From the NCBI GenBank assembly GCA_005116955.1, contig SWDI01000002.1, forward strand, positions 347,608 to 411,607: a stretch of 64,000 nt of DNA, written 5' to 3'. Shown here one piece after another: positions 11,421 to 48,445 of the stretch (positions within the stretch are counted from its first letter, which is position 1; the number at the start of each line of letters is the position of its first letter). A program made the position numbers and the translations under genes. Below the pieces are notes generated by a model. The model had not been told where the DNA came from, made no database searches, and worked only from the letters and a program-made list of their open reading frames with translations. The stretch is from Nitrospira sp. GTDB taxonomy: Bacteria; Nitrospirota; Nitrospiria; Nitrospirales; Nitrospiraceae.

Positions 11421-13601
11421 CTACCCTGTACAGACTTGATGTGCATGTAAGCGCGCATACAACCCACCGACATGTAGCAGCTCATCATGCGACCCCTGCT
11501 CAACAATCTCTCCCTTTTCGACGACATAAATGCGATGGGCGGGCCGCACCGTACTCAGTCGATGCGCAATGATGAAGACCGTACGCCCCTGACTGATCTG
11601 TGCCATGTTCTGCTGGATGACCGCTTCGGATTCGTAATCCAGCTCGCTGGTCGCCTCATCGAAGATCAGAATACGAGGATTGGCGACCACGGCCCGTGCA
11701 ATGGCGATTCGCTGACGCTGCCCTCCCGACAACGTACATCCGTGCTCTCCGATCACGGTGTCATATCCATCTCCCAATTCCAGAATGAACTCATGGGCAC
11801 CGGCCAATTTCGCCGCCTGAATCACCTGTTCCATACCCAGCCCTGGGTCCGTCAACGCAATATTGCTCCGCACCGAGCCGTTGAACAGGAAATTTTCCTG
11901 CAGCACGACTCCCACTTGCCTGCGGAGCCAGGCAGGATCGACCTGCGCCAAATCCACGCCATCTACCAACATACGCCCCCGTTCCGGCACATAGAGACGT
12001 TGTAACAATTTCGCGATCGTGCTTTTCCCAGATCCAGATCGCCCGACAATACCGATCACTTGCCCAGGCGCGACGGCAAACGAGACCTTGCGAAGGATCT
12101 CCGGACCGTCAGGCCGATAGCGAAAGGTGACCTCATCGAACCGCACGTGGCCCGTCACATGGGGAAGCGTCGTCCGATTCTGGTTATATGAAGGCTCAGG
12201 CTGCGTATTGAGTACATCACCCAACCGCTGGACGGAAATCCCGACTTGCTGAAATTCCTGCCAGAGATTGACCAAGCGCAAGAGCGGCCCTGTTACCTGT
12301 GCTGACAGCATATTGAACGCGATCAACTGCCCGATACTGAGATCGCCTTCAATCACACGATACGCACCGACCCACAAGACGGCTACAGTGGTCACCTTTT
12401 GAACACACGCCGCTGATTGACCGGCAATCATCATCAGACTGGTGGCTCGAAAACTCGACCGGACATAGCCGGCCAGTTGTTCCTCCCACTTCCGCACAAG
12501 CGGAGGTTCGACCGCCATGGCTTTCACGGTTTGGATCCCGCTGATCGCTTCGACTAAGAAGGCCTGGTTTTCGGCGCCTCGGTTGAACTTTTCATGCAAG
12601 CGCACTCGGATCGCCGGAGTAATGGCGATCGACAGCAACACATACATTGGAAGCGAGCCCATGACCACAAGCGTGAGCGTGGGACTGTAGAACCACATCA
12701 CCGCAAGGAAGACCATGGTAAAGATCACATCCAACACCACAGTGACCGCATGGCTGGTCAAGAATTGGCGGATCTGCTCTAACTCGCGCACACGTGCGAC
12801 CGTGTCACCGATCCGTCTCGCTTCAAAATAGGACAAGGGAAGCGCCAGAACGTGTCGAAAGAGTTGCGCGCCAAGACTCACATCGATCCGGTTCGTGGTA
12901 TGGGCAAAAAGATAACTGCGGAGCCCACCCAACATCGCTTCAAAGACCGCCAGCGTAATCATACCGATGGCCAATACATGGAGCGTGGTAAAGCCTTTAT
13001 GGACAAGCACCTTGTCGATAACCACTTGGGTGAAGAGCGGGGTCAACAGCGCAAAGAGCTGAAGGAAGAACGACGCCACCAACACCTCGCCGAAGAACTT
13101 CCTGTACTTGACGATCGCGGGGATAAACCACGTGAAATCGAACTTCAAGTCTTGCAGACGGACATGGGCTCGCTTGGTACACAAGACCAATTCTCCGGTC
13201 CACATCGACTCGAACTGTTCGCGGGAGAGCACGAGCGGGCGCGCTTCGATTGGGTCCTGGACCAACACCTTCTCCGCTTCGACCTTCGCCAGCACGACAT
13301 AGCGGCCATCAGTCCGTTTTGCCATGGCAGGCAGCGGTGTCCCCTGGAGTTTGCTCCACGTGGTACTGACCAGACCGGCCTTCAGTCCGAGATGTTTAGC
13401 CGCACGGAGGAGCTCGGTATCTGAGAGGGCTTGCCCGGACTGTGCAAACTGATGCCGCAGCTGCGCCCCATCGGCGGGAAGATCATGAAAGCGAGCGAGG
13501 ATGAGGAGACAGATCAGGCCGCTATCTGCCGGTGATCCATTCAAAGAGGCAGTGGAGCTGTGGTGCACCTGTTGCGGTCCTGAATTGTTCATGGGAGCCA
13601 C
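11421..13601 (-). CDS. Type I secretion ABC transporter (permease/ATPase, HlyB-like) with inactive C39-like domain
   Basis: 726 residues: an N-terminal peptidase C39-like domain (about 20-150), six transmembrane helices (150-450) and a nucleotide-binding domain (480-726). Walker A GRSGSGKST, signature LSGGQRQR, Walker B ILIFDEATSELD and the H-loop IIAHRLSTV are intact. In the C39 domain the residue equivalent to the catalytic Cys is Ser (DSGLICLLILARFHD), so it should bind but not cut substrate, as in HlyB. That predicts RTX-type substrates without a double-glycine leader. GTG 13601 is preferred because AGGTGG lies upstream; ATG 13592 is the alternative. An RTX-like fragment lies upstream. 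Confidence 0.92.
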   Translation of the reverse strand: MAPMNNSGPQQVHHSSTASLNGSPADSGLICLLILARFHDLPADGAQLRHQFAQSGQALSDTELLRAAKHLGLKAGLVSTTWSKLQGTPLPAMAKRTDGRYVVLAKVEAEKVLVQDPIEARPLVLSREQFESMWTGELVLCTKRAHVRLQDLKFDFTWFIPAIVKYRKFFGEVLVASFFLQLFALLTPLFTQVVIDKVLVHKGFTTLHVLAIGMITLAVFEAMLGGLRSYLFAHTTNRIDVSLGAQLFRHVLALPLSYFEARRIGDTVARVRELEQIRQFLTSHAVTVVLDVIFTMVFLAVMWFYSPTLTLVVMGSLPMYVLLSIAITPAIRVRLHEKFNRGAENQAFLVEAISGIQTVKAMAVEPPLVRKWEEQLAGYVRSSFRATSLMMIAGQSAACVQKVTTVAVLWVGAYRVIEGDLSIGQLIAFNMLSAQVTGPLLRLVNLWQEFQQVGISVQRLGDVLNTQPEPSYNQNRTTLPHVTGHVRFDEVTFRYRPDGPEILRKVSFAVAPGQVIGIVGRSGSGKSTIAKLLQRLYVPERGRMLVDGVDLAQVDPAWLRRQVGVVLQENFLFNGSVRSNIALTDPGLGMEQVIQAAKLAGAHEFILELGDGYDTVIGEHGCTLSGGQRQRIAIARAVVANPRILIFDEATSELDYESEAVIQQNMAQISQGRTVFIIAHRLSTVRPAHRIYVVEKGEIVEQGSHDELLHVGGLYARLHAHQVCTG

Positions 13602-32757: not shown

Positions 32758-34169
32758 GTGTAGCTAGCACATCATCTGTCCGCTTTTTGTAGCACATGAT
32801 CTGTCCGGTTTAGGGTGCGTCCTCAAGGAGGGCCACCATGACACGGGCGACAGTCCTACAGGAGGTGAGACGGATGCGGTTTGAAGAGCTGTACGAGCGG
32901 CGACAACGGCGGGAACTCACGATGGTGGAAGCGGCGGAGATCTTGGGGGTGACAGAACGGACATTTCGGCGGTGGAGTACGCGCTATGAAGCGGAGGGGA
33001 TCGAGGGGCTGGAGGATCGACGGCTGGGCCGGGCTTCAGCCTGCGCGGCCCCCGTCGACGAAGTCCTGCAGCTGGTGACTCTGTATGAGACCCGGTATAC
33101 GGGATGGACCGTCAAACATTTTCATGAGCGCTGGCACAAGGACCATGGCGGGACCCGCTCCTACACGTGGACCAAGAATCGGTTGCAACGGGCTGGACAG
33201 GTCGCCCCTGCCCCTCGCCGTGGCGCGCATCGCAAAAAGCGACCGCGCAAGCCCTTGCCGGGCATGATGCTGCATCAAGAGGGCTCGACCCATGAGTGGG
33301 TGCCGGGCTGTCAGTGGGATCTCATTGTGACGATGGACGATGCCACCAGTGAGCTCTATTCGGCCTTCTTCGTCGAAGAAGAAGGGACGATGAGCAGCTT
33401 CCAAGGGCTGCGGGAGGTGATTGAGGCCAGAGGGTTGTTCAGTTCCCTCTATACCGATCGAGGGACGCACTATTGGTATACCGAGGCAGCCGGGGGCAAG
33501 GTCGATAAGACCCGGCTCACGCAGGTCCACCGCGCCTTACAGCAACTGGGCATCACGCTGATCCCGGCCTATTCGCCGGAAGCGCGGGGCCGGTCGGAGC
33601 GCGTCTTTCGCACGTTACAAGATCGGCTGCCCAAAGAGTTGGCCCTGGCGGGGATTACGGAGATGGCGGCGGCCAATGCGTTGCTCCGTACCCGATTCAT
33701 CCCGGCCTACAACCAGCGGTTTGCGGTCCCCGCCGCAGAACCTGGCACCGCGTTTGTGCCCTGGGTGGGAGCCAGTCTGGTTGATGTGCTGTGTGTGCAG
33801 GAGGACCGCGTCGTCGCCAACGACAATACGGTGCGCTATCAGGGCCTGCATCTACAGATTCCGCCCGACCAGCACCGGTTCCATTATGTGAAGGTCACGG
33901 TGCGGGTCCACGCCCATCCGAATGGCACGTTGGCAGTGTTTCATGGCCCACGATGCTTGGCACAGTATCAGCCAGATGGGCGGATGATCGAGCCGGGTGG
34001 GACTCCGGCAGGCCGTCGCAGCCCGACCCGTGGAGCGGGCGACCGATCGATCGTGGATCCTCGACCAATTGTGCGCGAAAGAATTTCGGCGCGCGGCTGA
34101 AAAACGTGGAGCGGAACACACCGGACAGATCATGTGCTACAAAAACCGGACAACTTAACTTGCTATCTA
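32758..34169 (+). mobile_element. ISNCY-type insertion sequence (about 1.41 kb)
   Basis: The ends are set by the 16-bp direct repeats. Near both ends, inverted with respect to each other, is the block TTTTTGTAGCACATGATCTG followed by TCCGGT; outside it lies a second, degenerate unit of the same type (on the left TAGCACATCATCTGTCCG; weaker on the right). One transposase gene fills the inside. The element interrupts the region upstream of fumC. Confidence 0.88.
32838..34100 (+). CDS. ISNCY-family transposase
   Basis: 420 residues. An N-terminal helix-turn-helix (MVEAAEILGVTERTFRRW) is followed by a second DNA-binding segment and an integrase-like core: Asp in LIVTMDDATSELYSAF, Asp in SLYTDRGTHYWY, and Glu in YSPEARGRSERVFRTL, giving a DDE triad. 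The C-terminus has a beta-rich domain (VHAHPNGTLAVFHG). This matches the ISNCY group related to IS481-like rve integrases. The frame is intact, so the element may still move. Confidence 0.92.
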   Translation: MTRATVLQEVRRMRFEELYERRQRRELTMVEAAEILGVTERTFRRWSTRYEAEGIEGLEDRRLGRASACAAPVDEVLQLVTLYETRYTGWTVKHFHERWHKDHGGTRSYTWTKNRLQRAGQVAPAPRRGAHRKKRPRKPLPGMMLHQEGSTHEWVPGCQWDLIVTMDDATSELYSAFFVEEEGTMSSFQGLREVIEARGLFSSLYTDRGTHYWYTEAAGGKVDKTRLTQVHRALQQLGITLIPAYSPEARGRSERVFRTLQDRLPKELALAGITEMAAANALLRTRFIPAYNQRFAVPAAEPGTAFVPWVGASLVDVLCVQEDRVVANDNTVRYQGLHLQIPPDQHRFHYVKVTVRVHAHPNGTLAVFHGPRCLAQYQPDGRMIEPGGTPAGRRSPTRGAGDRSIVDPRPIVRERISARG

Positions 34170-37446: not shown

Positions 37447-39438
37447 TCATTCCACCCGTCCTGAAAACGCAAGCGTGGATTCAAGCTGATCTTCATGTTG
37501 AAGTAACTCACGACGCACACGGGCATGCACCCGTTCCGCCGACCATTGAGCCCAACGCACCACGCACTGTGCTGCCCATCCTTCCAGTGGCTCACCCAGT
37601 TTCAGAAGCACCGAAGCGACCCACCGGATGACCGTCCCCCCAGAGGCAACCAACAGTTCGTCATCCAAGGATGTCACGGTTTCGTAACTCCCAGGATCGC
37701 CTTGACGACCTGTCCGCCCGTAGAGCTGCCGATCGATACGTGTCGCTTCATGCCGTTCGGTCGCGATCACATGCAGTCCGCCAGCCTGTGCCACGGAACG
37801 AAGCAGTTTGATATCGGTTCCACGACCCGCCATATTCGTGGCCACGGTGACTCGTCCCGCTTCGCCAGCCGCCGCCACGACTGAGGCTTCTTCCTGGTCC
37901 TGCCTCGCATTGAGCACCACATGCTCGATCGTGGCCCTCGTCAGTTGCTGACTCAAGACCTCGGAGGCATCAACGGACCTTGTCCCCACCAAAATGGGCC
38001 GACCTTGTTTCTGCAACGCTACAATCCGATCCACAACTGCTTCCCATTTCTGCGCTCCCGTGGCGAACAAGCGCTCACCCAACCACCGGCGTTGAAGCGG
38101 GCGATTCGTCGGAACCGTGACGGTTGCAAGTCGATAGACGGTCCACAGCTCGCCGGCCACCTCCTGTGCGGTGCCGGTCATCCCGGAGAGCCAGAGATAG
38201 CGTCGGAAAAATCGCTGGTAGGTGATGCGCGCCAGCGGCCGGTTCATCGGCGTCACCGGGCACCCTTCCTTCAACTCGATCATTTGATGCAGCCCATGTT
38301 CCCAAGACCGATCTCCCATCACTCGTCCCGTATATTCGTCGATGATCTGCACTTTCTCACCACGCACGAGGTAGTGCACATCGCGCTGAAACAGATGGAG
38401 CCCAGTGAGCGCCTGCCGGACCAGCTCTTCCCTCCGTCTGGGGCCAGACCAGATGCCTGTGAGACTCACCGTGCGATCCATGAGTGCGGTCCGACCGCGT
38501 GAAGTGAGTCGGATGGTTCGCTCTCGGCCATCCAGTGAGAAATCCTGCCCCTGCACTAAGCCGCGAGCAAGGTTCAAGGCCGTCTCATAAATATCCTTCT
38601 CCGGCACCTCGCCCCCGGCACCGGAGATGATCAAGGGTACCCGCGCTTCATCCACCAACACACTATCGGCTTCATCGACAATGCCGAAACATAAGCCCCG
38701 CAAGACCAACTGCCGCAGCCTCGCCGCATCACCATAGAGCTGCTCCAGTTGGAGTTGGATGCGATTCGGCTGCCGCCCGACCACCAACCGGTCTCGGAGA
38801 TAGTCGAATGCCAGTTCTTTATTGCAGCAGTACGTCACGTCGCAACCGTACGCACTCCGTCGCGCGACCGGATCGAGCTCATGGATCACGGCACCGACGC
38901 TGAGCCCGAGCATCTCATAGAGAGGGGCCATCTCACGGGCATCCCGTCCCGTCAAATAGTCGTTGACCGTGATCACATGGACCGGCACCCCGGCCATAGC
39001 AACCGTCGCCGCCGCCAATGTCGCGGTAAGCGTCTTGCCTTCTCCCGTTGCCATTTCCGCGATGCAGCCGTTCAGCAAGACCCAGCCACCGAGAATCTGG
39101 ACGTCATAGTGCCGTTGACCTAGTGTCCGGTGCGCCACTTCCCGAATCAGGGCGAAGGACCTGCACACCCGCTCCTCCGAAAGACCCTCCCGACGCAAGC
39201 TCTTGCGCAACTGCGTCGCTCGTTCGGTGAGCTGCTCGTCCGACAGCCTTGAGAGCTCGTGGCCCTGCGTTGCTACCTGTTCGACAATCGTCGTATTTCG
39301 GCACCGCCTCACTCGGTGCCGGCGCAGCAGCGGACTGACCAGGCGAGCCCCTTGCCGGTCGAACCACCCCTCGTTGGGGACGTGCCGTTCTGGGTAGGCA
39401 CTGTGTAAGGCCGTGCGTTCGCGTGCCAGATCAAACAT
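37447..39438 (-). CDS. Shortened SecA-like ATPase
   Basis: 663 residues against about 850-900 for housekeeping SecA. Motor motifs are intact: Walker A MATGEGKTLT, DEADSVLVDEAR, SGMTGTA, GTRSVDAS, NMAGRGTDI and GRTGRQGDPG. The preprotein-binding region is present (EYTGRVMGDRSWEHGLHQ). After motif VI only about 70 residues remain, so the helical wing/two-helix finger and the zinc-binding tail are missing or highly divergent. The first 45 residues are also unlike SecA. It overlaps the M50-HlyD gene by 8 bases. It is probably an accessory motor for one substrate class and not the general translocase. Confidence 0.88.
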   Translation of the reverse strand: MFDLARERTALHSAYPERHVPNEGWFDRQGARLVSPLLRRHRVRRCRNTTIVEQVATQGHELSRLSDEQLTERATQLRKSLRREGLSEERVCRSFALIREVAHRTLGQRHYDVQILGGWVLLNGCIAEMATGEGKTLTATLAAATVAMAGVPVHVITVNDYLTGRDAREMAPLYEMLGLSVGAVIHELDPVARRSAYGCDVTYCCNKELAFDYLRDRLVVGRQPNRIQLQLEQLYGDAARLRQLVLRGLCFGIVDEADSVLVDEARVPLIISGAGGEVPEKDIYETALNLARGLVQGQDFSLDGRERTIRLTSRGRTALMDRTVSLTGIWSGPRRREELVRQALTGLHLFQRDVHYLVRGEKVQIIDEYTGRVMGDRSWEHGLHQMIELKEGCPVTPMNRPLARITYQRFFRRYLWLSGMTGTAQEVAGELWTVYRLATVTVPTNRPLQRRWLGERLFATGAQKWEAVVDRIVALQKQGRPILVGTRSVDASEVLSQQLTRATIEHVVLNARQDQEEASVVAAAGEAGRVTVATNMAGRGTDIKLLRSVAQAGGLHVIATERHEATRIDRQLYGRTGRQGDPGSYETVTSLDDELLVASGGTVIRWVASVLLKLGEPLEGWAAQCVVRWAQWSAERVHARVRRELLQHEDQLESTLAFSGRVE

Positions 39439-41578
39439 TGAAACGCGCCAGGAATACCTGACGCCCCTGTCGATACCATTGAGTCGCTAACGATTCTCGT
39501 CCATGATCGAATCGGACATAGACCCGCCCACCGACGTTGAGGAGAGCTTGTTGCAGCGGCAATGCTAAATCGATCTGGAACAGTTTCTTGAGCGCGGTGT
39601 GTCCCTTCGAATCGCGTGGATCAAGCGGCACCTGCCCTCCACCCTCGCTGCCCAAGGCCAGACTCGGCAGCTCGTCGCTGGCCGCTGGCACCAGGCGCGT
39701 GATCGTCGCCGGCATCGGGTCGGCCAACCGCTCCGACAATCGCACTTCCACGGCCTGGGTCTGATGCCGAATCAAGTCGATATCACCTTGATCGACAATC
39801 GTGCGGACGGTCATCGTCTTGAGGTTCACCACATGGGCCAGCACATCACCCCGCTTCACAAATCGCCCGAGCAGATCCTCGGCCTTAGAAAGGATGAATG
39901 TCCCTGCCACCTGACTTTTGATCTCAAGCTCTGACTGCCGCTCCTTCGCCCGAGCTAAACGCTGTTCGATGTACCGTTGCTCCTCTTCCAACATTTTCGC
40001 CTTCACCAAGTTGTCGACGAGTTGCTCTCGGACCCGGGCTTTGATTTCTTGCACCTGCGCGTCGAGCACCTTCACATCTGCTTGGACAACGGGGTCTGAA
40101 CAGACCACGAGCAGATCGCCAGGGTGGACCGTTGAGCCAGGCACCGCCACCACCTGTTCAACAAACCCATCAACCTGGGCTCGCACAAAGGCCTCCTCAG
40201 GAATCCAGACGATGCCCTCTGCCCTGCTCCGAAACGGCACCGGGATAAGCGTCAGCACGGCCATTACCCCGGCAACCAGTGCCAGGCTGACAGCCACAGC
40301 TCGCCCGCGCACCCGTCTGATCCTAGGACTTGTGAACAGATAGTGAATGCCCTTCCCAAGCGGCAATAGAAACCAGGTGCCGGCCGTCAAGACCGCAAAG
40401 ATGACACCCAGGAGAAATAACTGGTCCGTGAGATACAGGAGAATGGCAACGACGACCACTACCCGATAGAGAAACGATGACATGGCATAGGTGATGAACC
40501 AAGCCCGCTCACCTTCGGTCGCATGGGGGACCGGCGCATCGTCTCGTCCAAACAGGTATCGTTCACAGAGATACCCGAGATAGGCATTGGCACGTTGTCG
40601 GAGATTCGGAATTTCCAGAAAGTCCGCCAGGATATAATAGCCGTCAAAGCGCAGAAGCGGATTGGCGTTGAATACGACCGTGGAGATGCCAGCGATAAAA
40701 ATGGTGTTGTAGGCGAGGGTGCTCACCGTACCCGGCTCGACGCTCACCCAGATATACACGGCCATCGCGGCCAGCACCAATTCCACGATCATCCCTGCGG
40801 CTCCGACGACCACGCGCTGCCATTTATCGGCAAACGCAGATGAGGCCGAGGCGTCTACATAGGGCACCGGAGAGAGAACCAGGAGCATGATCCCCATGTC
40901 ATGCACCTCGCCACCAAACACTTTCACGGCGAAAGCATGGCCGAATTCATGCAGCGCTTTGATCACGGGAAAGAGCAGCCACAACAGTACGAGATTCTGC
41001 GGCGCGGTCACACGATCAATCAGATTGGCGCTCAGATCAGACCAGTGGGCAGCACCGATCAAAACAGCTGGACCAACAATGAGGCACCAGAGGACCGCAC
41101 CCCACCAGGAAAAGAAGGGGCGGACAAGCGAGGCCCCCTGCTGCAGAAACCGTTCGGGGTCAATGAGGGGAAACTGCCAGGCGAACACGCTCATCAGCCG
41201 CTTCTGCCATTTCTGCTGTTGCTGTTTGTCGTGGCGAGCCAACAGCTCGGCGGTGTCCGGTGGAATGTCGCACTGCAACACGTCCGCAGCATGCAGCTGT
41301 GCCAACAGTTGGACGACGTCCGGTTGTGTCGGCGCGTTGTCACCGAGCCGAGTCGAGACAAGCTCCCAGAGGTCCTGAACGGAGCGCGTGCCGTCCATCA
41401 AACCAATGAAGGAGAACGCAGCTGGAGAAAATCTGTGGAATCGCTCGTTCGATCGGTCCTGCAACACATACCAAATCTGTCCGCGATAGCGATGCCGATG
41501 CAGCACGGCATGGCTGCGAAGCCGCGGAGTGAGGGATGCCACGCGATACCAGGAGGGACTAAATAACGCTTCGCTCAT
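39431..41578 (-). CDS. PqqD-like / M50 metallopeptidase / HlyD fusion membrane protein
   Basis: 715 residues. Residues 25-105 resemble a PqqD peptide-binding domain (WYVLQDRSNERFHRFSPAA). The middle (155-430) is polytopic with the M50 zinc site H210EFGH214 and the second signature NANPLLRFDGYYILADFLE. A final transmembrane helix (about 430-450) leads to an HlyD-like part with lipoyl halves (VRAQVDGFVEQVVAVPGSTV, RFVKRGDVLAHVVNL) and a coiled coil (500-560). So one protein combines a candidate substrate-recognition domain, an intramembrane protease core and a periplasmic adaptor. Proteolysis itself is not proven by motifs. Confidence 0.85.
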   Translation of the reverse strand: MSEALFSPSWYRVASLTPRLRSHAVLHRHRYRGQIWYVLQDRSNERFHRFSPAAFSFIGLMDGTRSVQDLWELVSTRLGDNAPTQPDVVQLLAQLHAADVLQCDIPPDTAELLARHDKQQQQKWQKRLMSVFAWQFPLIDPERFLQQGASLVRPFFSWWGAVLWCLIVGPAVLIGAAHWSDLSANLIDRVTAPQNLVLLWLLFPVIKALHEFGHAFAVKVFGGEVHDMGIMLLVLSPVPYVDASASSAFADKWQRVVVGAAGMIVELVLAAMAVYIWVSVEPGTVSTLAYNTIFIAGISTVVFNANPLLRFDGYYILADFLEIPNLRQRANAYLGYLCERYLFGRDDAPVPHATEGERAWFITYAMSSFLYRVVVVVAILLYLTDQLFLLGVIFAVLTAGTWFLLPLGKGIHYLFTSPRIRRVRGRAVAVSLALVAGVMAVLTLIPVPFRSRAEGIVWIPEEAFVRAQVDGFVEQVVAVPGSTVHPGDLLVVCSDPVVQADVKVLDAQVQEIKARVREQLVDNLVKAKMLEEEQRYIEQRLARAKERQSELEIKSQVAGTFILSKAEDLLGRFVKRGDVLAHVVNLKTMTVRTIVDQGDIDLIRHQTQAVEVRLSERLADPMPATITRLVPAASDELPSLALGSEGGGQVPLDPRDSKGHTALKKLFQIDLALPLQQALLNVGGRVYVRFDHGRESLATQWYRQGRQVFLARFNV

Positions 41579-41640: not shown

Positions 41641-43548
41641 TCACGGGAGCCACGTCCAAATAGTGAGTCTGATCCAATCCACGACTTGATGGGTCCAGAT
41701 CCAGATGAACGAGCGTCGATCGATCTCGATCTTCCCTGCCCCTTCCATCGCCGGGCGCAGACGGTCATGCGGCTGATCAAGAGCCGCTTCCACACGGAAG
41801 AAGTTGCGCCCATCCTTTGCCGTCGACACGGGTGTCATCTTGGCAACCGTGACCCCTACCGGGTCCGACGGAAAGGCCGAGAGCAACAGCTGCCCGTGCT
41901 GGCCCACCTGCACATCGGCGATATCACGCTCGTCGACTTCCAGTACCACCCGATAGCTGTCGAGCGGAGCAATCTCGAACAGCACCTTGCCCTTTTCAAC
42001 CGGTGAACCCAACGACTGGCTCAGATCTCCGCTGACGATGATTCCATCGAACGGCGCCAACACACGCGTGTGTGCGAGCTGATCATCAACGAGAGCAAGT
42101 TCCGACTCCACCTGATGCATCTGCGCGGTGGCAATCTCGACCTTGGCGGCCTCCCGCTCTGCCATCGCCTTATGATATTCCTTGCGATACTCTTCGAGCT
42201 TGCTCGCAGACTTCAGACGTTCGAGCCGTAATTCCCGATCGTCGAGCGTACAGAGGACATCGCCCACACGCACCATGTCGCCGGCTCGAAGAGGTGCCTC
42301 TCGGATATAGCCGTTGAAGGGAGCCGCAGCCGTTCGCTGAACGATCGGCTCCAAAATCGTCTTGGTCGACACTCGATACTCGCCCTCGGCTACGATACAG
42401 AAGAGCAGTAGGCCTGCAAGAGTCGCTGTCGTCACCTTCAACGCCACATGACTGGGGCCCAGCAAGTCATGAACGTATCGAGTGAGGGCATCCCAGACTT
42501 TCGCACCAATCCAACGATCGTCACGACGATGGATCTCCAGCACAGGACCGACCAGCGCCGCCACCGACCGGCACAGGACGACGCTCTTATCGTCGAACGG
42601 TCGTTCCGCCGGCCGTTCCAGCAAGAGGGCGCCGACGGCCTGCCCACTCGCCTCCAAAGGCACGCACAACAGCGCGCCACACCCATGGTCCTTGGCAAAC
42701 GCCGCATGGGCCTGCATCACGACTCCAGCCCCTTCCACCGGCGGGGGAAAGACGATCATTTCACGTTGATCAATCGCTTCATCCATGGCTTCGGCCAACC
42801 CACGAATCACATTGGTCTGTGCTTTGAATTCAGCACTATGGGACACCGCAGCCACGCAGGCGTGGCCGCTCTTTACAAACCCGAGACTCACCCGGTCGCA
42901 GGCAAGGCTTGTCGCCAGCGCATTCACCAACGCCATGGCTGAGGCATAAAACCGGTCATGCCCGACGGCCGTGGCGACCAGATCCAGTGCGGCTTGAATT
43001 CGCTCTCGCGTGCCTTTTTCGAGAACCACCGCTTCCCGCGCAAACAGTAGTTCGAGCCAGGCAGCCCCCCACTGCAGCTGCCGCATGAGCCCTTGCAACT
43101 CCGTCTCGGATCTCGGCCCGACTTCCAACACGACCACGCCATGCAGCGAACCACACACCTCGATGGGATAGCCGATTTCGCTAGAGCCGTTCTGCGTCCC
43201 ACCCTCAACCTGCTCACCACACACAATGAGACGCCGCCGTTCTGCCAACGTGCGCTCAGCGGTATGGGTGAGCTGTGTGAGATGCTGAAGGCCTTCAGGC
43301 CAGATGGCCACGGGAGAGAAAGGACCACGATCAGGCGGGCCAAAGAGCACGATGCCCGCCCGCACACCCTCGATCATGAGGCATTGCAGCGCCAACCAAT
43401 TCCGGCAAAAGGCCTCGACCGTCGTGGCCTCGGCAAAGGCGGTCCAGAGTGTATCATCCTGAGTTGCATCAGCTTGTGCCAGCGTGGCGACCAACGCATT
43501 CGCCTCCACTGTCTGACTTGCACGCTGTGAGCTGACCTGTTCGCTCAT
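41641..43548 (-). CDS. GAF-domain / HlyD adaptor fusion membrane protein
   Basis: 635 residues. The first 380 residues are cytoplasmic, with one or two GAF-like domains: one about 50-165 (GIVLFGPPDRGPFSPVA) and a second about 195-340 (ACDRVSLGFVKSGHACVAAV, GALLCVPLEASGQAVGALLL). One transmembrane helix follows (about 372-390), then a membrane-fusion part with lipoyl halves (NGYIREAPLRAGDMVRVGD, HTRVLAPFDGIIVSGDLSQ) around a short coiled coil. GAF domains usually bind small ligands, so export may be gated by a cytoplasmic signal. The gene lies between the surface-protein genes and the M50-HlyD gene. Confidence 0.85.
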   Translation of the reverse strand: MSEQVSSQRASQTVEANALVATLAQADATQDDTLWTAFAEATTVEAFCRNWLALQCLMIEGVRAGIVLFGPPDRGPFSPVAIWPEGLQHLTQLTHTAERTLAERRRLIVCGEQVEGGTQNGSSEIGYPIEVCGSLHGVVVLEVGPRSETELQGLMRQLQWGAAWLELLFAREAVVLEKGTRERIQAALDLVATAVGHDRFYASAMALVNALATSLACDRVSLGFVKSGHACVAAVSHSAEFKAQTNVIRGLAEAMDEAIDQREMIVFPPPVEGAGVVMQAHAAFAKDHGCGALLCVPLEASGQAVGALLLERPAERPFDDKSVVLCRSVAALVGPVLEIHRRDDRWIGAKVWDALTRYVHDLLGPSHVALKVTTATLAGLLLFCIVAEGEYRVSTKTILEPIVQRTAAAPFNGYIREAPLRAGDMVRVGDVLCTLDDRELRLERLKSASKLEEYRKEYHKAMAEREAAKVEIATAQMHQVESELALVDDQLAHTRVLAPFDGIIVSGDLSQSLGSPVEKGKVLFEIAPLDSYRVVLEVDERDIADVQVGQHGQLLLSAFPSDPVGVTVAKMTPVSTAKDGRNFFRVEAALDQPHDRLRPAMEGAGKIEIDRRSFIWIWTHQVVDWIRLTIWTWLP

Positions 43549-43868: not shown

Positions 43869-45671
43869 TCACGCCGTCACGGTAATCGTCACCGTTGCCA
43901 GGTTGGATGTGGCTGTGCCGTCGCTGGCTCGGTAGGTGAAGCTATCCGTGCCGATGACCCCAGTGTTGGGCCGATAGGTAAACGTGCCGTTGGTATTGAA
44001 CGTCAGCGTGCCCTTGGTCGGACCAGTCACGAGCGCCGCTGTGAGCGGCTTCCCCTCTGGATCTCGGTCGTTGGTCAGAACATTGCCGTTGAGAAGAGCA
44101 TTGGCAGTGCCGATTTTCATGAGTTCTCTGTTAGAACTGCTCGTTTCGCCGCTAAAGAACAGCGTGCCGTTCACGTTGGCGAGTTCTCCAACGTTTGCCC
44201 CGGCTAAAACCCGTACGGTTCCTGCCACGGTTCCATCGCTTCTCCAGAGGTCGGAGTTGCTAGATCTGAAGTAGGCCACCCCATTCACATCAGTGATCAT
44301 TGGGCTGCCGTTAGCCCGGTCAGGCAACGTCATCCCACCGGGAGCCAGCGCAACCGTCCCCGTTGCGGTCCCATTACTCTTCCACAACTCGAAGGTACTG
44401 TTGTTACGGAAGAAGAGTTGATTGCCTACGCCGGTCAGATCACTGAAGGGTGTACTACCTGTCCCCGGCGTAATATCTTTAACCAAAACCGTCCCAGCCG
44501 TCGTCCCGTCGCTCTTCCAGAGTTCCCGACCGTTGACATCATTGTCAGCCGTGAAGAAGAGCGTACCGTTGACATTCGTCAGATATTGAGGATACGAATG
44601 GCGACTGGACCCCACCGCGATGTCTTTGACCAGCACAGTTCCCACCGCCGTCCCGTCGGTCTTCCATAGTTCGGTTCGATTGACCCCATCATCTACCACA
44701 AAGAAAAGAGTCTGATTAACCACTGTGAGGGAAGCGTCCTGCGACGACAGTGAATAGAAGGAACGAACCACCTGGGTCCCAGTCGCGGTCCCATCACTCT
44801 TCCACAAATCATACTTATCGGTTGCAGTGTTGAAAGCGGTGAAGAACAGCATGCCCTTGAAGCTCGTGAGCAGATTTGGAGAGGAGCTGGACAAGCCGAG
44901 GTAAATATCTTTGACCAAGACCGTCCCCGCCGCTGTCCCGTTGCTCTTCCACAGCTCTATACCATTAACCCCGTTATCGACCGTGAAGAAAAGTGTGCCA
45001 TTCACGTTGGTGAGGGAACCGGTATGCCAGCTGGAGTTTGGGAATCCAGAGGCGCTCCCAGGATTGATATCCTTCACCAAGATGGTTCCCCCTGCCGTGC
45101 CATCGCTCTTCCATAGTTCCCGACCGTTGGCTGCAGTCTCGGCGAGGAAAAATAACGTGCCGTTGACATTCGTAAGATATTGAGGATTCGAACCGCTGAA
45201 CCCAGCCACGATATCTTTGACCAAAACAGTCCCCGCCGCTGTGCCGTCGCTCTTCCATAATTCCCGACCATTGACCCCGTTATCGGCCGTAAAGTAGAGC
45301 AGGCCATTGACGTTGACGAAGTCATTTGGATTTGAACCAGCTCCGGTCCGAATGTCTTTGACGAGGACCGGTCCCCCACCCTTTGATAGCGTAAATGCAT
45401 CATTGACCACGATGGGCGGCTGATTGGTCAGATTGGTCAGAAAATGGACATCGCCGGTAGTGGTCCGTGTCTGTCCCGCGAGCAGATAGGTCGACGGAAT
45501 CGTCGGTGTAATGAAGCGGCTGTCGGCACTCAGTGTGCCTTGTATCTTGATACTGCCGATCCCAGTGGGCGTGCCGGTGACAAACCGGTCATTGCCATTG
45601 CCGAAGATCCCATCCACCGGGTTGACACTCACCCGCACGGTGCTCCCGGTCATCGATCCGGTCAGGACCAA
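43869..45671 (-). CDS. Second ELWxxDGT-repeat ORF, product of an out-of-frame tandem duplication
   Basis: 600 codons without an N-terminal export motif. It begins (TTG 45671) in the middle of what is, in the upstream gene, internal sequence (LTGSMTGSTVRVSVNPVDGI) and repeats that gene's second half: eight ELWKSDGT-type repeats set inside an Ig-like domain, ending TATSNLATVTITVTA. The copy differs at many residues from the first, yet the frame has stayed open. Its start overlaps the upstream stop by 10 bases, so it could be made by reinitiation or a -1 frameshift, or be the detached 3' half of a larger gene. Without the LEPR-XLL end it may not be exported alone. Confidence 0.7.
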   Translation of the reverse strand: MVLTGSMTGSTVRVSVNPVDGIFGNGNDRFVTGTPTGIGSIKIQGTLSADSRFITPTIPSTYLLAGQTRTTTGDVHFLTNLTNQPPIVVNDAFTLSKGGGPVLVKDIRTGAGSNPNDFVNVNGLLYFTADNGVNGRELWKSDGTAAGTVLVKDIVAGFSGSNPQYLTNVNGTLFFLAETAANGRELWKSDGTAGGTILVKDINPGSASGFPNSSWHTGSLTNVNGTLFFTVDNGVNGIELWKSNGTAAGTVLVKDIYLGLSSSSPNLLTSFKGMLFFTAFNTATDKYDLWKSDGTATGTQVVRSFYSLSSQDASLTVVNQTLFFVVDDGVNRTELWKTDGTAVGTVLVKDIAVGSSRHSYPQYLTNVNGTLFFTADNDVNGRELWKSDGTTAGTVLVKDITPGTGSTPFSDLTGVGNQLFFRNNSTFELWKSNGTATGTVALAPGGMTLPDRANGSPMITDVNGVAYFRSSNSDLWRSDGTVAGTVRVLAGANVGELANVNGTLFFSGETSSSNRELMKIGTANALLNGNVLTNDRDPEGKPLTAALVTGPTKGTLTFNTNGTFTYRPNTGVIGTDSFTYRASDGTATSNLATVTITVTA

Positions 45672-45698
45672 CGCCTGCAGGCGCCCCAGACCATAGGT
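43918..45698. repeat. Tandem duplication, copy B (1781 bp)
   Basis: The junction lies at 45698/45699, where sequence ending GACCATAGGT (also at 47461-47470) meets CCGTCGCTGG (also at 43918-43927). Copy A is 45699-47470. The copies are nearly identical at their outer parts and diverged in the repeat region. Confidence 0.85.
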
Positions 45699-48445
45699 CC
45701 GTCGCTGGCTCGGTAGGTGAAGCTATCCGTGCCGATGAACCCAGCGTTAGGCCGATAGGTGAACGTGCCGTTGGCATTGAACGTCAGCGTGCCCTTGGTC
45801 GGACCAGTCACGAGCGCAGCTGTGAGCGGCTTCCCCTCCGGATCACGGTCGTTGGTGAGAACATTAGCCTTAGTGACCTTCATGAGTTCTTGTCCAGTCC
45901 CAACCTGGACACCACTGAAGAACAGTGAGTCATTCACATTGGCGAGTTCATGGACGTTTGCGCCTGCTAGGACACGTACGGTCCCTGCAACAGTCCCATC
46001 GCTCCTCCACAGGTCATGGTTGTTGGCTCTGAAGTAGGCCAGCCCATTGATATCCGTAATCATCGCGCCACCGCCCTGGGGTAGCGTCAAGCCACTAGCA
46101 GCCAGGGCAATCGTTCCCGCCTCCGTACCATTACTCTTCCACAGCATCTCGATTCCATTCACCTGGGCGTGGAAGAAAAGTTGGCTCCCTACCTTTTCCA
46201 GTTCCCTGAAGATGGTATGCCCAGCCCCCGACGTGATGTTTTTGACCAGAACCGTCCCACCCGCAGTCCCGTCGCTCTTCCAGAGTTCTGTCCCTGTCGC
46301 GGACGTATTAGCTACGAAGTACAACCTGCCATTGACGTTCGTGAGGTGACTAGGCTCAGAAGTGCTACCCTCAGGGCTGAAATCCTTCACCATAATCGTC
46401 CCGCCAGTCGTGCCGTCAGTCTTCCAAAGCTTGTTGTGAGTACTGAAGCCATTATTGGCCGTGAAGAAGAGAGTACTGCCGACCGCTTCGAGGTTACTGA
46501 TATCAATCCAGCTATTCGGCGCGAAGCCTCCGACCCGTTGCGTCCCTGTAGCGTCGCTCTTCCATAAATTAGGGCCTGTCTTACCATCATTGGCCACAAA
46601 GAACAGCGTGCCATTAACAACAGTCAACTCTTCGATCCTCGAGTCAAGCGAACCCTCCCAGATATCCATGACCCGGACCGTCCCACCCTCTGTCCCGTTG
46701 CTCTTCCAGAGTTCCCGGCCTTTCACGCCATCATCGGCAGTGAAGAAAAGGGTCCCGTTGACGTTGACAAAGAGATCATTGAGCAAAAACGAGATTCCAT
46801 ACCCGGTCCCTGGCTTAATGTCCTTGACCCGGACCGTCCCAGGCCCTGTCCCGTCGCTCTTCCAGAGCTCCCGACCTTCCGCTGCCGTTTCAGCGGTGAA
46901 GAACAACTTGCCGTTCACATTCGTGAGGTGGTAGGGATTCGAGCTGCCAGCCCCTCCGACAATATCCTTCACCAGTACAGTCCCCTCTGCAGTTCCGTTA
47001 CTCTTCCAAAGTTCAACGCCATCCGCTCCATTTCCGTTATTGGCCGTGAAGAAAATAGTGCCGTTGATATTCACAAAGTTAGATGGGTTTGAGGCGCTGG
47101 CACCCGATAGGATGTCCTTGACGACGGACGCAACCTCAGAGAGAACACCATTCTGCTTCACCGTGAACGCATCATTGTTGGCGATGGGAGGCTGATTGGT
47201 CAGATTGGTAAGGAAATGGACATCCCCGGTGGTTGTCCTGGTCTGTCCCGCGAGCAGATAGGTCGTCGGAATCGTCGGCGAAATGAAACGGCTGTCGGCA
47301 CTCAGGGTCCCTTGTATCTTGATACTGCCGATCCCGGTGGGCGTGCCGGTAACAAACCGGTCATTGCCGTTGCCGAAGATCCCATCCACCGGGTTGACGC
47401 TGACCCGCACCGTACTCCCGGTCATCGAACCGGTCAGGACCAACGCCTGCAGGCGCCCCAGACCATAGGTATCGAGATTGGTGCTCGTCCCGCCCAGCTT
47501 CCCGTCCTGCCCCAGCGTCGTTCCAATATAGAGCTTCGCGTTTGTGAGGTTCCGCGCGGTGAAAGTGGTGATGGATTTGGCGGCCACATTCCCGCCGAGC
47601 ACATCGCCGAGCGTGAGGGTGGTGATAGTCCCATTGATGGCCACGGTCCCGTTCATATCAGTGGTGGCTGCGGTAAACGACGCCAATGGGCCGGCCGTCT
47701 GGATATCGTTCAGCGTGACGCGCCCATTGCCGCCGCTGGTGGTGATGGTAACGGCGGACGTGGTGGTCGTGCCGGTGAGTTTCAGATCCCAGCTCGTGCC
47801 GTCTTTGACGACCGTGCCAACCCCTGGACCAGTCAACTTGAACGTCACGGCGGTGCCATCAGCATCGCGCAGCGTGAGCACGGTGTTGCCGGTACGGCCC
47901 GGCACGGTACCGAACTGCCACACGACCGTAAACGAGGGCCTCACCTCGGTATTGTTCGCTTCTCCGGCTGTGCCTTCGGCCACGATGTTCGTCGCATCCA
48001 CCCGCGAGAGTAACTTATATGACCCGGCGGCTAAAGTATTGGGCATCGTCAGGTTGACCAACACACTACGAGACTGTCCAGGATTGAGCGGCGTGGCCGC
48101 CGTGGCCGTAGTCATGGCCGTCCCCAACAACACATCCGACGTGCTGAACGTGGTATCGGTCGAGGCATAGACACGCACTTGCGTGGACAGGGTGGCAGCC
48201 GTGGTCCCTTGGTTTTTCACTTGGACCGTCGCCGTTTCAACGTTCGTCGGCACACTGGGATCCGTCAGGGTATGGGCCGTCACGAGGCCGGTCAGGTCCG
48301 CCGCCAGTAAGATTCGTCCTTCCAGCGGTTCCAGCGTATACTCGGACGCTGGGCGTGGTGCATCGGTCGCACGATATGTACGTGGCCCTCCTTGCTTACC
48401 GCTCAACAACCCCCGGAGCTTCGAAACAAATACCCCCTCGCGCAT
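45662..48445 (-). CDS. LEPR-XLL surface protein with CARDB-like and ELWxxDGT repeat domains
   Basis: 927 residues. There is no Sec signal peptide; instead residues 41-50 read LEGRILLAAD, the LEPR-XLL motif found near the start of large surface proteins. Then come a CARDB-like domain (TVQVKNQGTTAATLSTQVRV, about 70-170), a beta-rich region (180-370) and an Ig/cadherin-like domain (PPIANNDAFTV ... FTYRASDG) that contains eight ELWxxDGTxxGT repeats between its first strand and the rest. The last codons (PMVWGACRRWS) are read out of frame across a duplication junction, so the native C-terminus is lost. A strong AAGGAGGTGA precedes ATG 48445. It is probably the substrate of the export genes downstream. 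Confidence 0.85.
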   Translation of the reverse strand: MREGVFVSKLRGLLSGKQGGPRTYRATDAPRPASEYTLEPLEGRILLAADLTGLVTAHTLTDPSVPTNVETATVQVKNQGTTAATLSTQVRVYASTDTTFSTSDVLLGTAMTTATAATPLNPGQSRSVLVNLTMPNTLAAGSYKLLSRVDATNIVAEGTAGEANNTEVRPSFTVVWQFGTVPGRTGNTVLTLRDADGTAVTFKLTGPGVGTVVKDGTSWDLKLTGTTTTSAVTITTSGGNGRVTLNDIQTAGPLASFTAATTDMNGTVAINGTITTLTLGDVLGGNVAAKSITTFTARNLTNAKLYIGTTLGQDGKLGGTSTNLDTYGLGRLQALVLTGSMTGSTVRVSVNPVDGIFGNGNDRFVTGTPTGIGSIKIQGTLSADSRFISPTIPTTYLLAGQTRTTTGDVHFLTNLTNQPPIANNDAFTVKQNGVLSEVASVVKDILSGASASNPSNFVNINGTIFFTANNGNGADGVELWKSNGTAEGTVLVKDIVGGAGSSNPYHLTNVNGKLFFTAETAAEGRELWKSDGTGPGTVRVKDIKPGTGYGISFLLNDLFVNVNGTLFFTADDGVKGRELWKSNGTEGGTVRVMDIWEGSLDSRIEELTVVNGTLFFVANDGKTGPNLWKSDATGTQRVGGFAPNSWIDISNLEAVGSTLFFTANNGFSTHNKLWKTDGTTGGTIMVKDFSPEGSTSEPSHLTNVNGRLYFVANTSATGTELWKSDGTAGGTVLVKNITSGAGHTIFRELEKVGSQLFFHAQVNGIEMLWKSNGTEAGTIALAASGLTLPQGGGAMITDINGLAYFRANNHDLWRSDGTVAGTVRVLAGANVHELANVNDSLFFSGVQVGTGQELMKVTKANVLTNDRDPEGKPLTAALVTGPTKGTLTFNANGTFTYRPNAGFIGTDSFTYRASDGPMVWGACRRWS
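45699..47470. repeat. Tandem duplication, copy A (1772 bp)
   Basis: Same-orientation counterpart of 43918-45698; the lengths differ by 9 bases (three codons). Both copies hold eight ELWxxDGT-type repeats. Confidence 0.85.

Follow-up and report, generated by a model that had tools for sequence, protein, structure and literature searches.

An M50-HlyD fusion protein of Nitrospira and its proposed role in processing the LEPR-XLL tag of giant proteins

Results

Domain structure of the M50-HlyD fusion protein

We analysed a stretch of 64,000 nucleotides from Nitrospira sp. (GenBank assembly GCA_005116955.1, contig SWDI01000002.1, positions 347,608 to 411,607 of the forward strand; hereafter, the window) and focused on the gene at 39431..41578 on the minus strand. 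It encodes P0001, a fusion protein of 715 residues that consists of an RRE/PqqD-like domain, an M50 membrane core, and a HlyD adaptor. Since this protein is encoded beside giant surface proteins carrying an N-terminal LEPR-XLL tag in many unrelated bacteria, it probably reads and cuts the tag during export.

The open reading frame (ORF) had been pointed out in a first-pass annotation made from the letters alone, and it proved to be real with exact coordinates. The frame is stop-free and overlaps the next gene, which encodes a SecA-like ATPase, by 8 bases. Full-length orthologues with identities of 38-81% were found in Nitrospira, in alpha-, beta-, gamma-, and deltaproteobacteria, and in Omnitrophota; the closest named relative outside its own genome was from a metagenome-assembled genome of Nitrospira sp. 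(81%).

The N-terminal domain (residues 18-101; 41276..41527, minus strand) was indicated by a Pfam PqqD match below the cut-off, and a profile made from 37 N-termini matched the solved PqqD structures 3g2b (E 0.0016) and 5sxy (E 0.11). In the AlphaFold model (mean pLDDT 87.8, 72-row alignment), residues 24-97 formed three strands and then three helices, which is the order of PqqD/RRE domains, and were followed by a helical membrane part at approximately 142-444 and an adaptor at 446-702. This HlyD/MexA-type periplasmic adaptor (39473..40243, minus strand; alpha-hairpin at 496-549) scored above the Pfam cut-off (PF13437, 38.6 bits; PF16576, 33 bits), and a fold search aligned residues 445-704 with structures of MacA, MexA, EmrA, and HlyD (Z up to 15.4; MacA and MexA, 14-15), in keeping with the barrel-sandwich, alpha-hairpin, and beta-barrel build of the HlyD/RND adaptor family.

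The membrane part contains HEFGH (residues 210-214; 40937..40951, minus strand), a putative zinc-binding and catalytic motif, and FDGYY (residues 311-315; 40634..40648, minus strand) within NxNPLLRFDGYY, in which D312 is the putative third zinc ligand. K207, H210, E211, H214, N304, N306, P307, D312, Y314, and D319 were identical in all 72 homologues. The M50/site-2 protease pattern, HExxH with a distant (N)P..DG, is present in P0001 (H210ExxH214; N304..P307..D312G) and is fully or almost fully conserved among these homologues. The full-length orthologues in different phyla and the invariance of the putative catalytic residues indicated that P0001 is not a chance frame, and the invariance of H210, E211, H214, and D312 argues for catalysis. 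Both motifs had been noticed in the first-pass annotation, and its three-domain reading (PqqD-like start, M50 core, and HlyD adaptor) was borne out by the profile, the model, the fold matches, and the conserved residues.

An operon without an ABC transporter

The operon lies on the minus strand in the order LEPR-XLL protein (P0002), P0003, GAF-HlyD, M50-HlyD, SecA-like ATPase, HlyD, and TolC. The presumed substrate P0002 (927 residues; 45662..48445; NF012209, TIGR04534) is composed of a LEPR-XLL leader, ELWxxDGT repeats, and an Ig-like Big_9/tandem-95 end. Between it and P0001, beyond P0003, is the GAF-HlyD fusion P0005 (635 residues; 41641..43548). The SecA-like ATPase P0006 (663 residues; 37447..39438), with DEAD, preprotein-binding, and second nucleotide-binding domains, is followed by the HlyD/RND-type adaptor P0007 (36555..37595), whose real start is probably within the frame, and by the TolC-family outer-membrane channel P0008 (35189..36655; OEP, 157.8 bits). 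No ATP-binding cassette (ABC) transporter was found among the operon genes; in type 1 secretion systems, such a transporter is encoded together with the HlyD and TolC components.

Alignment of P0006 to the canonical SecA, which is encoded elsewhere in the same genome, indicated that the ATPase motifs of both nucleotide-binding domains are kept (GEGKT, VDEADSVL, ATNMAGRGTD, and GRTGRQGDPG). The alignment stopped inside the scaffold; P0006 is without most of the C-terminal scaffold/wing, which in SecA carries the two-helix finger.

Conservation was counted over the 80 best loci out of 84,980 species genomes, with genes called homology-first. HExxH was kept in all 80 loci, and GAF-HlyD and the SecA-like ATPase were each present in 75. 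A DUF3467 gene occurred in 24 loci; in almost all of them it shares the strand of the operon and precedes GAF-HlyD (e.g., L050:6823-7218 and L035:7408-7770); it was not found in the window. Its product has the conserved pattern YANVCNxxSTREEVxLxFGxNQxW..LSDRIxLxPxAAKRL and was predicted to form three strands and a long helix. As to the idea of a SecB-like chaperone, the matches listed for the model (pLDDT 75) contained no SecB; all were weak and similar to COMMD/PC4, with Z values of at most 5.6. A SapC-family gene (PF07277) was present in 17 loci (e.g., L073:12218-13072 and L031:12259-13092), in some of which, such as L073, it lies between the M50-HlyD and SecA genes.

A SecA_DEAD/Peptidase_M50/GAF/HlyD locus has been described by Kamneva, Poudel and Ward (2015; PMC4452313), who read M50 as a possible pore. 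The present operon has the same gene set, with SecA_DEAD, M50/HlyD, GAF/HlyD, and HlyD together and no ABC transporter; TolC was sometimes present in the published loci, which included those of Nitrospirae and Proteobacteria. The 2015 paper also reported the locus from Planctomycetes and named Methylobacterium extorquens AM1, a strain with a type A locus. The two accounts differ in that the 2015 paper named no substrate, and its main text contains neither LEPR, PqqD, SapC, nor DUF3467. The first-pass annotation was silent on the SecA-like ATPase, the GAF-HlyD partner, and this published locus.

The LEPR-XLL tag

P0002 matched the LEPR-XLL family NF012209 at 19.3-20.4 bits against a cut-off of 17, so that the neighbouring LEPR-XLL protein of the first-pass annotation is real. 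The title of the family gives no mechanism. One paper uses LEPR-XLL only to name a domain in a very large protein of Vibrio (PMC10868602), and no described role for it was found in the literature searched. Likewise, no work was found that links PqqD, M50, and HlyD, or DUF4347, or SapC/DUF3467 with SecA/HlyD.

The tag of P0002 is LEPLEGRILLAAD (residues 38-50; 48296..48334, minus strand). Tags usually start with 15-110 mostly basic residues, followed by [FL]-E-x-[LM]-E-P-R-x-L-[LF]-S-A-D, and conservation ends at D(+9). Among the type A tags (the two types are described below), 64 of 73 matched [FLIVMY][ED]x[LM]E. The tag pattern was absent from 5,926 reversed ORFs. The tags are without a Sec-type hydrophobic core: the median of their best 15-residue hydropathy was 1.15 and none reached 2, compared with 2.4 for the membrane helices of P0001.

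The best curated family for P0001 was the daptide intramembrane metalloprotease NF041824 (168.3 bits, residues 18-401); as the equivalog cut-off is 300, P0001 is a relative of this family, not a member. Daptides were found through an RRE domain fused to a site-2 protease, their precursors carry ELExMEAP, and the protease MpaP was proposed by the authors to remove the leader (PMC10036551). Like MpaP, P0001 carries at its N-terminus an RRE-type domain that is joined to an intramembrane site-2 protease, and the tag [FL]Ex[LM]EPR resembles the daptide leader motif. In contrast to P0001, with its fused HlyD adaptor and presumed giant cargo, MpaP deals with small modified peptides that have a separate ABC transporter. 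As for the position of the putative cut, alignment with the daptide leader would place it directly behind LEPR, and the point at which conservation ends suggests LLSA|D.

The nearest curated relatives (daptide and YydH/LiaK) process short precursors of ribosomally synthesized and post-translationally modified peptides, and the locus might accordingly export or mature other cargo such as small peptides, the LEPR tag being a surface-attachment signal handled elsewhere. Neighbourhood clustering of the loci, however, yielded no short conserved ORF besides DUF3467, and the daptide-leader-like tag stands at the very beginning of the giant proteins encoded nearby. We consider such other cargo highly improbable.

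Co-occurrence with LEPR-XLL giants

A search of 32 locus-bearing genomes detected LEPR-XLL proteins above the curated cut-off in 29, most of the frames having 4,000 to 14,390 codons, and the same search in named control genomes gave a match in 1 of 14. Among 323 gammaproteobacterial species, 39 had LEPR-XLL proteins, 51 had the M50-HlyD protein, and 33 had both (p = 4.6e-26), and under a stricter LEPR cut the M50-HlyD protein was present in 26 of 28 strong LEPR genomes (Fisher p = 5e-22); these p-values are indicative only, because species are not independent points. When the six LEPR-only gammaproteobacterial genomes were searched again in full, the matches were to the HlyD part only. In 59 genomes around that of the window, all 15 with LEPR above the cut-off had an M50-HlyD protein, and no LEPR above the cut-off was found in the 29 without one. 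These results suggested that LEPR-XLL proteins are very likely the cargo of the locus.

The giants could also leave through a classical ABC-type type 1 secretion system (T1SS), with the locus only modifying, sensing, or regulating, as the GAF domain and site-2-protease signalling might imply. ABC exporters of the superfamily were found in all 36 genomes tested, LssB-type ones scoring above the cut-off in 12, and the window itself contains a T1SS-like ABC gene at approximately 11475-13514 (minus strand; ORF 11421-13601) with 573 bits to TIGR03375, below the cut-off. This explanation is nevertheless unlikely in view of the adjacency of LEPR proteins to the M50-HlyD protein and their co-occurrence with it. 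It is further opposed by a relative (G025, 99% complete) in which loci of the two types are found together with LEPR proteins, and in which the best match to the LssB model (328 bits) is without the N-terminal 150 positions. Two ORFs of 464 and 451 residues lie beside the T1SS-like ABC gene of the window.

Two clades of the locus

A second locus in the same genome (L006) comprises TolC, HlyD, HlyD (with no GAF match), M50-HlyD, and then a DUF4347 protein with the N-terminus LLSLESRLMFDAAATATAAEV. Loci of this kind, termed type B, formed one sister clade in the M50-HlyD tree (SH-aLRT 100), and SecA was absent from all 24 of them. The tags differed at their ends: type B tags ended in FD[AG]A in 12 of 12 cases where a tag was found, and type A tags in [SA][AG], then mostly D, in 20 of 20. 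The difference supports matching between protease and tag and does not prove it, because it coincides with a single split of the tree. The type B cargo gene of this genome (L006:13576-16807) is split into two overlapping frames of 568 and 612 residues, perhaps by a frameshift. L235 (genome G349), possibly a third branch, lies deep in the tree and resembles type A; it comprises GAF-HlyD, HlyD, and a protein with LETRLLYSAD, and is without SecA.

The clades also bear on the proposal of Kamneva et al. (2015), according to which the M50 part would be an inner-membrane pore or scaffold that replaces the ABC transporter and has no working protease, with the SecA-like protein as motor. The lack of an ABC gene, the adjoining SecA-like ATPase, and the several membrane helices fit this proposal (PMC4452313). 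A pore alone, however, needs neither the zinc-type residues that are invariant in the 72 homologues nor an HExxH kept in every locus, and clade B retains the M50 core without any SecA. Therefore, we regard a purely structural M50 part as improbable.

Discussion

Here, we proposed that P0001 reads and cuts the leader and serves as the docking subunit in a candidate secretion system of the HlyD/TolC type that would export LEPR-XLL proteins without an ABC transporter, a role that we consider reasonably probable. The cytosolic RRE/PqqD-like domain would bind the tag at [FL]ExLEPR, by analogy with daptides and other RRE proteins. In type A alone, the truncated SecA-like ATPase would deliver or push the chain; a motor function of this protein has an even chance at best. 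The putative M50 zinc site, to which we attribute cleavage of the tag as the favoured assignment, would cut near LLSA-D in type A or MFD-A/GA in type B. A conduit through which the mature protein arrives at the surface would then be built from TolC, the free-standing HlyD, the HlyD part of P0001, and GAF-HlyD. Strong support for the link to the LEPR-XLL leader, already suggested in the first-pass annotation, comes from the adjacency of the genes, their joint occurrence in genomes, the subtype-specific tag variants, and the likeness to the daptide RRE/site-2 protease and its ELExMEAP motif. As for delivery of the product to the periplasm, which the annotation had also suggested, the HlyD and TolC partners instead speak for export from the cell.

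In type 1 secretion systems whose ABC exporters carry a C39 leader peptidase, an N-terminal leader is combined with a membrane peptidase, a HlyD adaptor, and a TolC channel. The P0001 locus is alike in outline and differs in having no ABC transporter, in an M50-type enzyme that replaces C39, and in the SecA-like ATPase of type A.

Several observations weigh against the proposed role. The M50 match of P0001 (PF02163) is 26.2 bits against a cut-off of 27.2, the paralogue being above it at 31.7. The PqqD match (PF05402) is 19.5 bits, below the gathering cut-off of 23.4, and the domain is labelled "PqqD/RRE-like" for this reason. No M50 structure was among the matches listed in the fold search with the P0001 model, a result that says nothing either way, as the HlyD part filled the list. 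The tag difference between A and B may stem from a single event. The SecA-like ATPase cannot be the general power source, because clade B is without SecA. Two of the 28 strong LEPR genomes (G156 and G279) have no M50-HlyD protein, and classical T1SS-type ABC exporters are likewise encoded in many such genomes, among them that of the window.

More broadly, the locus may represent a distinct secretion route, an idea that we offer tentatively and rate below the role of P0001 itself. In such a route, LEPR-XLL would be a true export signal, read by the RRE and cut by M50, and the giants would traverse the two membranes with neither an ABC transporter nor a Sec signal peptide, one branch being powered by a truncated SecA and its sister branch having no dedicated ATPase. 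The SecA/M50/HlyD locus, cargo-less since 2015, and the role-less LEPR-XLL domain, which labels proteins that are among the largest in bacteria, very probably belong together, and each gains a testable function as reader and signal. If true, an M50 enzyme would join the secretion leader peptidases, which have so far been of the C39 type; RRE domains would recognize leaders not only of small peptides but also of proteins thousands of residues long; and a function would be assigned to the second SecA that these Gram-negative bacteria possess. New in the present study are the link of the locus to LEPR-XLL giants, the SecA-less sister clade with another tag end, the likeness to the daptide leader, and DUF3467 and SapC as frequent members.

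Among the neighbouring genes, P0003 (43869..45671, minus strand) is a second, leaderless ELWxxDGT copy. In the region 43869-48445 of the minus strand, it duplicates the C-terminal half of P0002 but is read in a different frame, with the junction within ..YRASDG/..YGLGRLQA; the pair is an out-of-frame partial tandem duplication, either real or an assembly effect. In the relatives L028 and L030, one copy of the P0002-type gene, of approximately 890-940 residues, was observed. Just past the TolC end of the operon, an ISNCY-family transposase is encoded at 32838-34100 on the plus strand.

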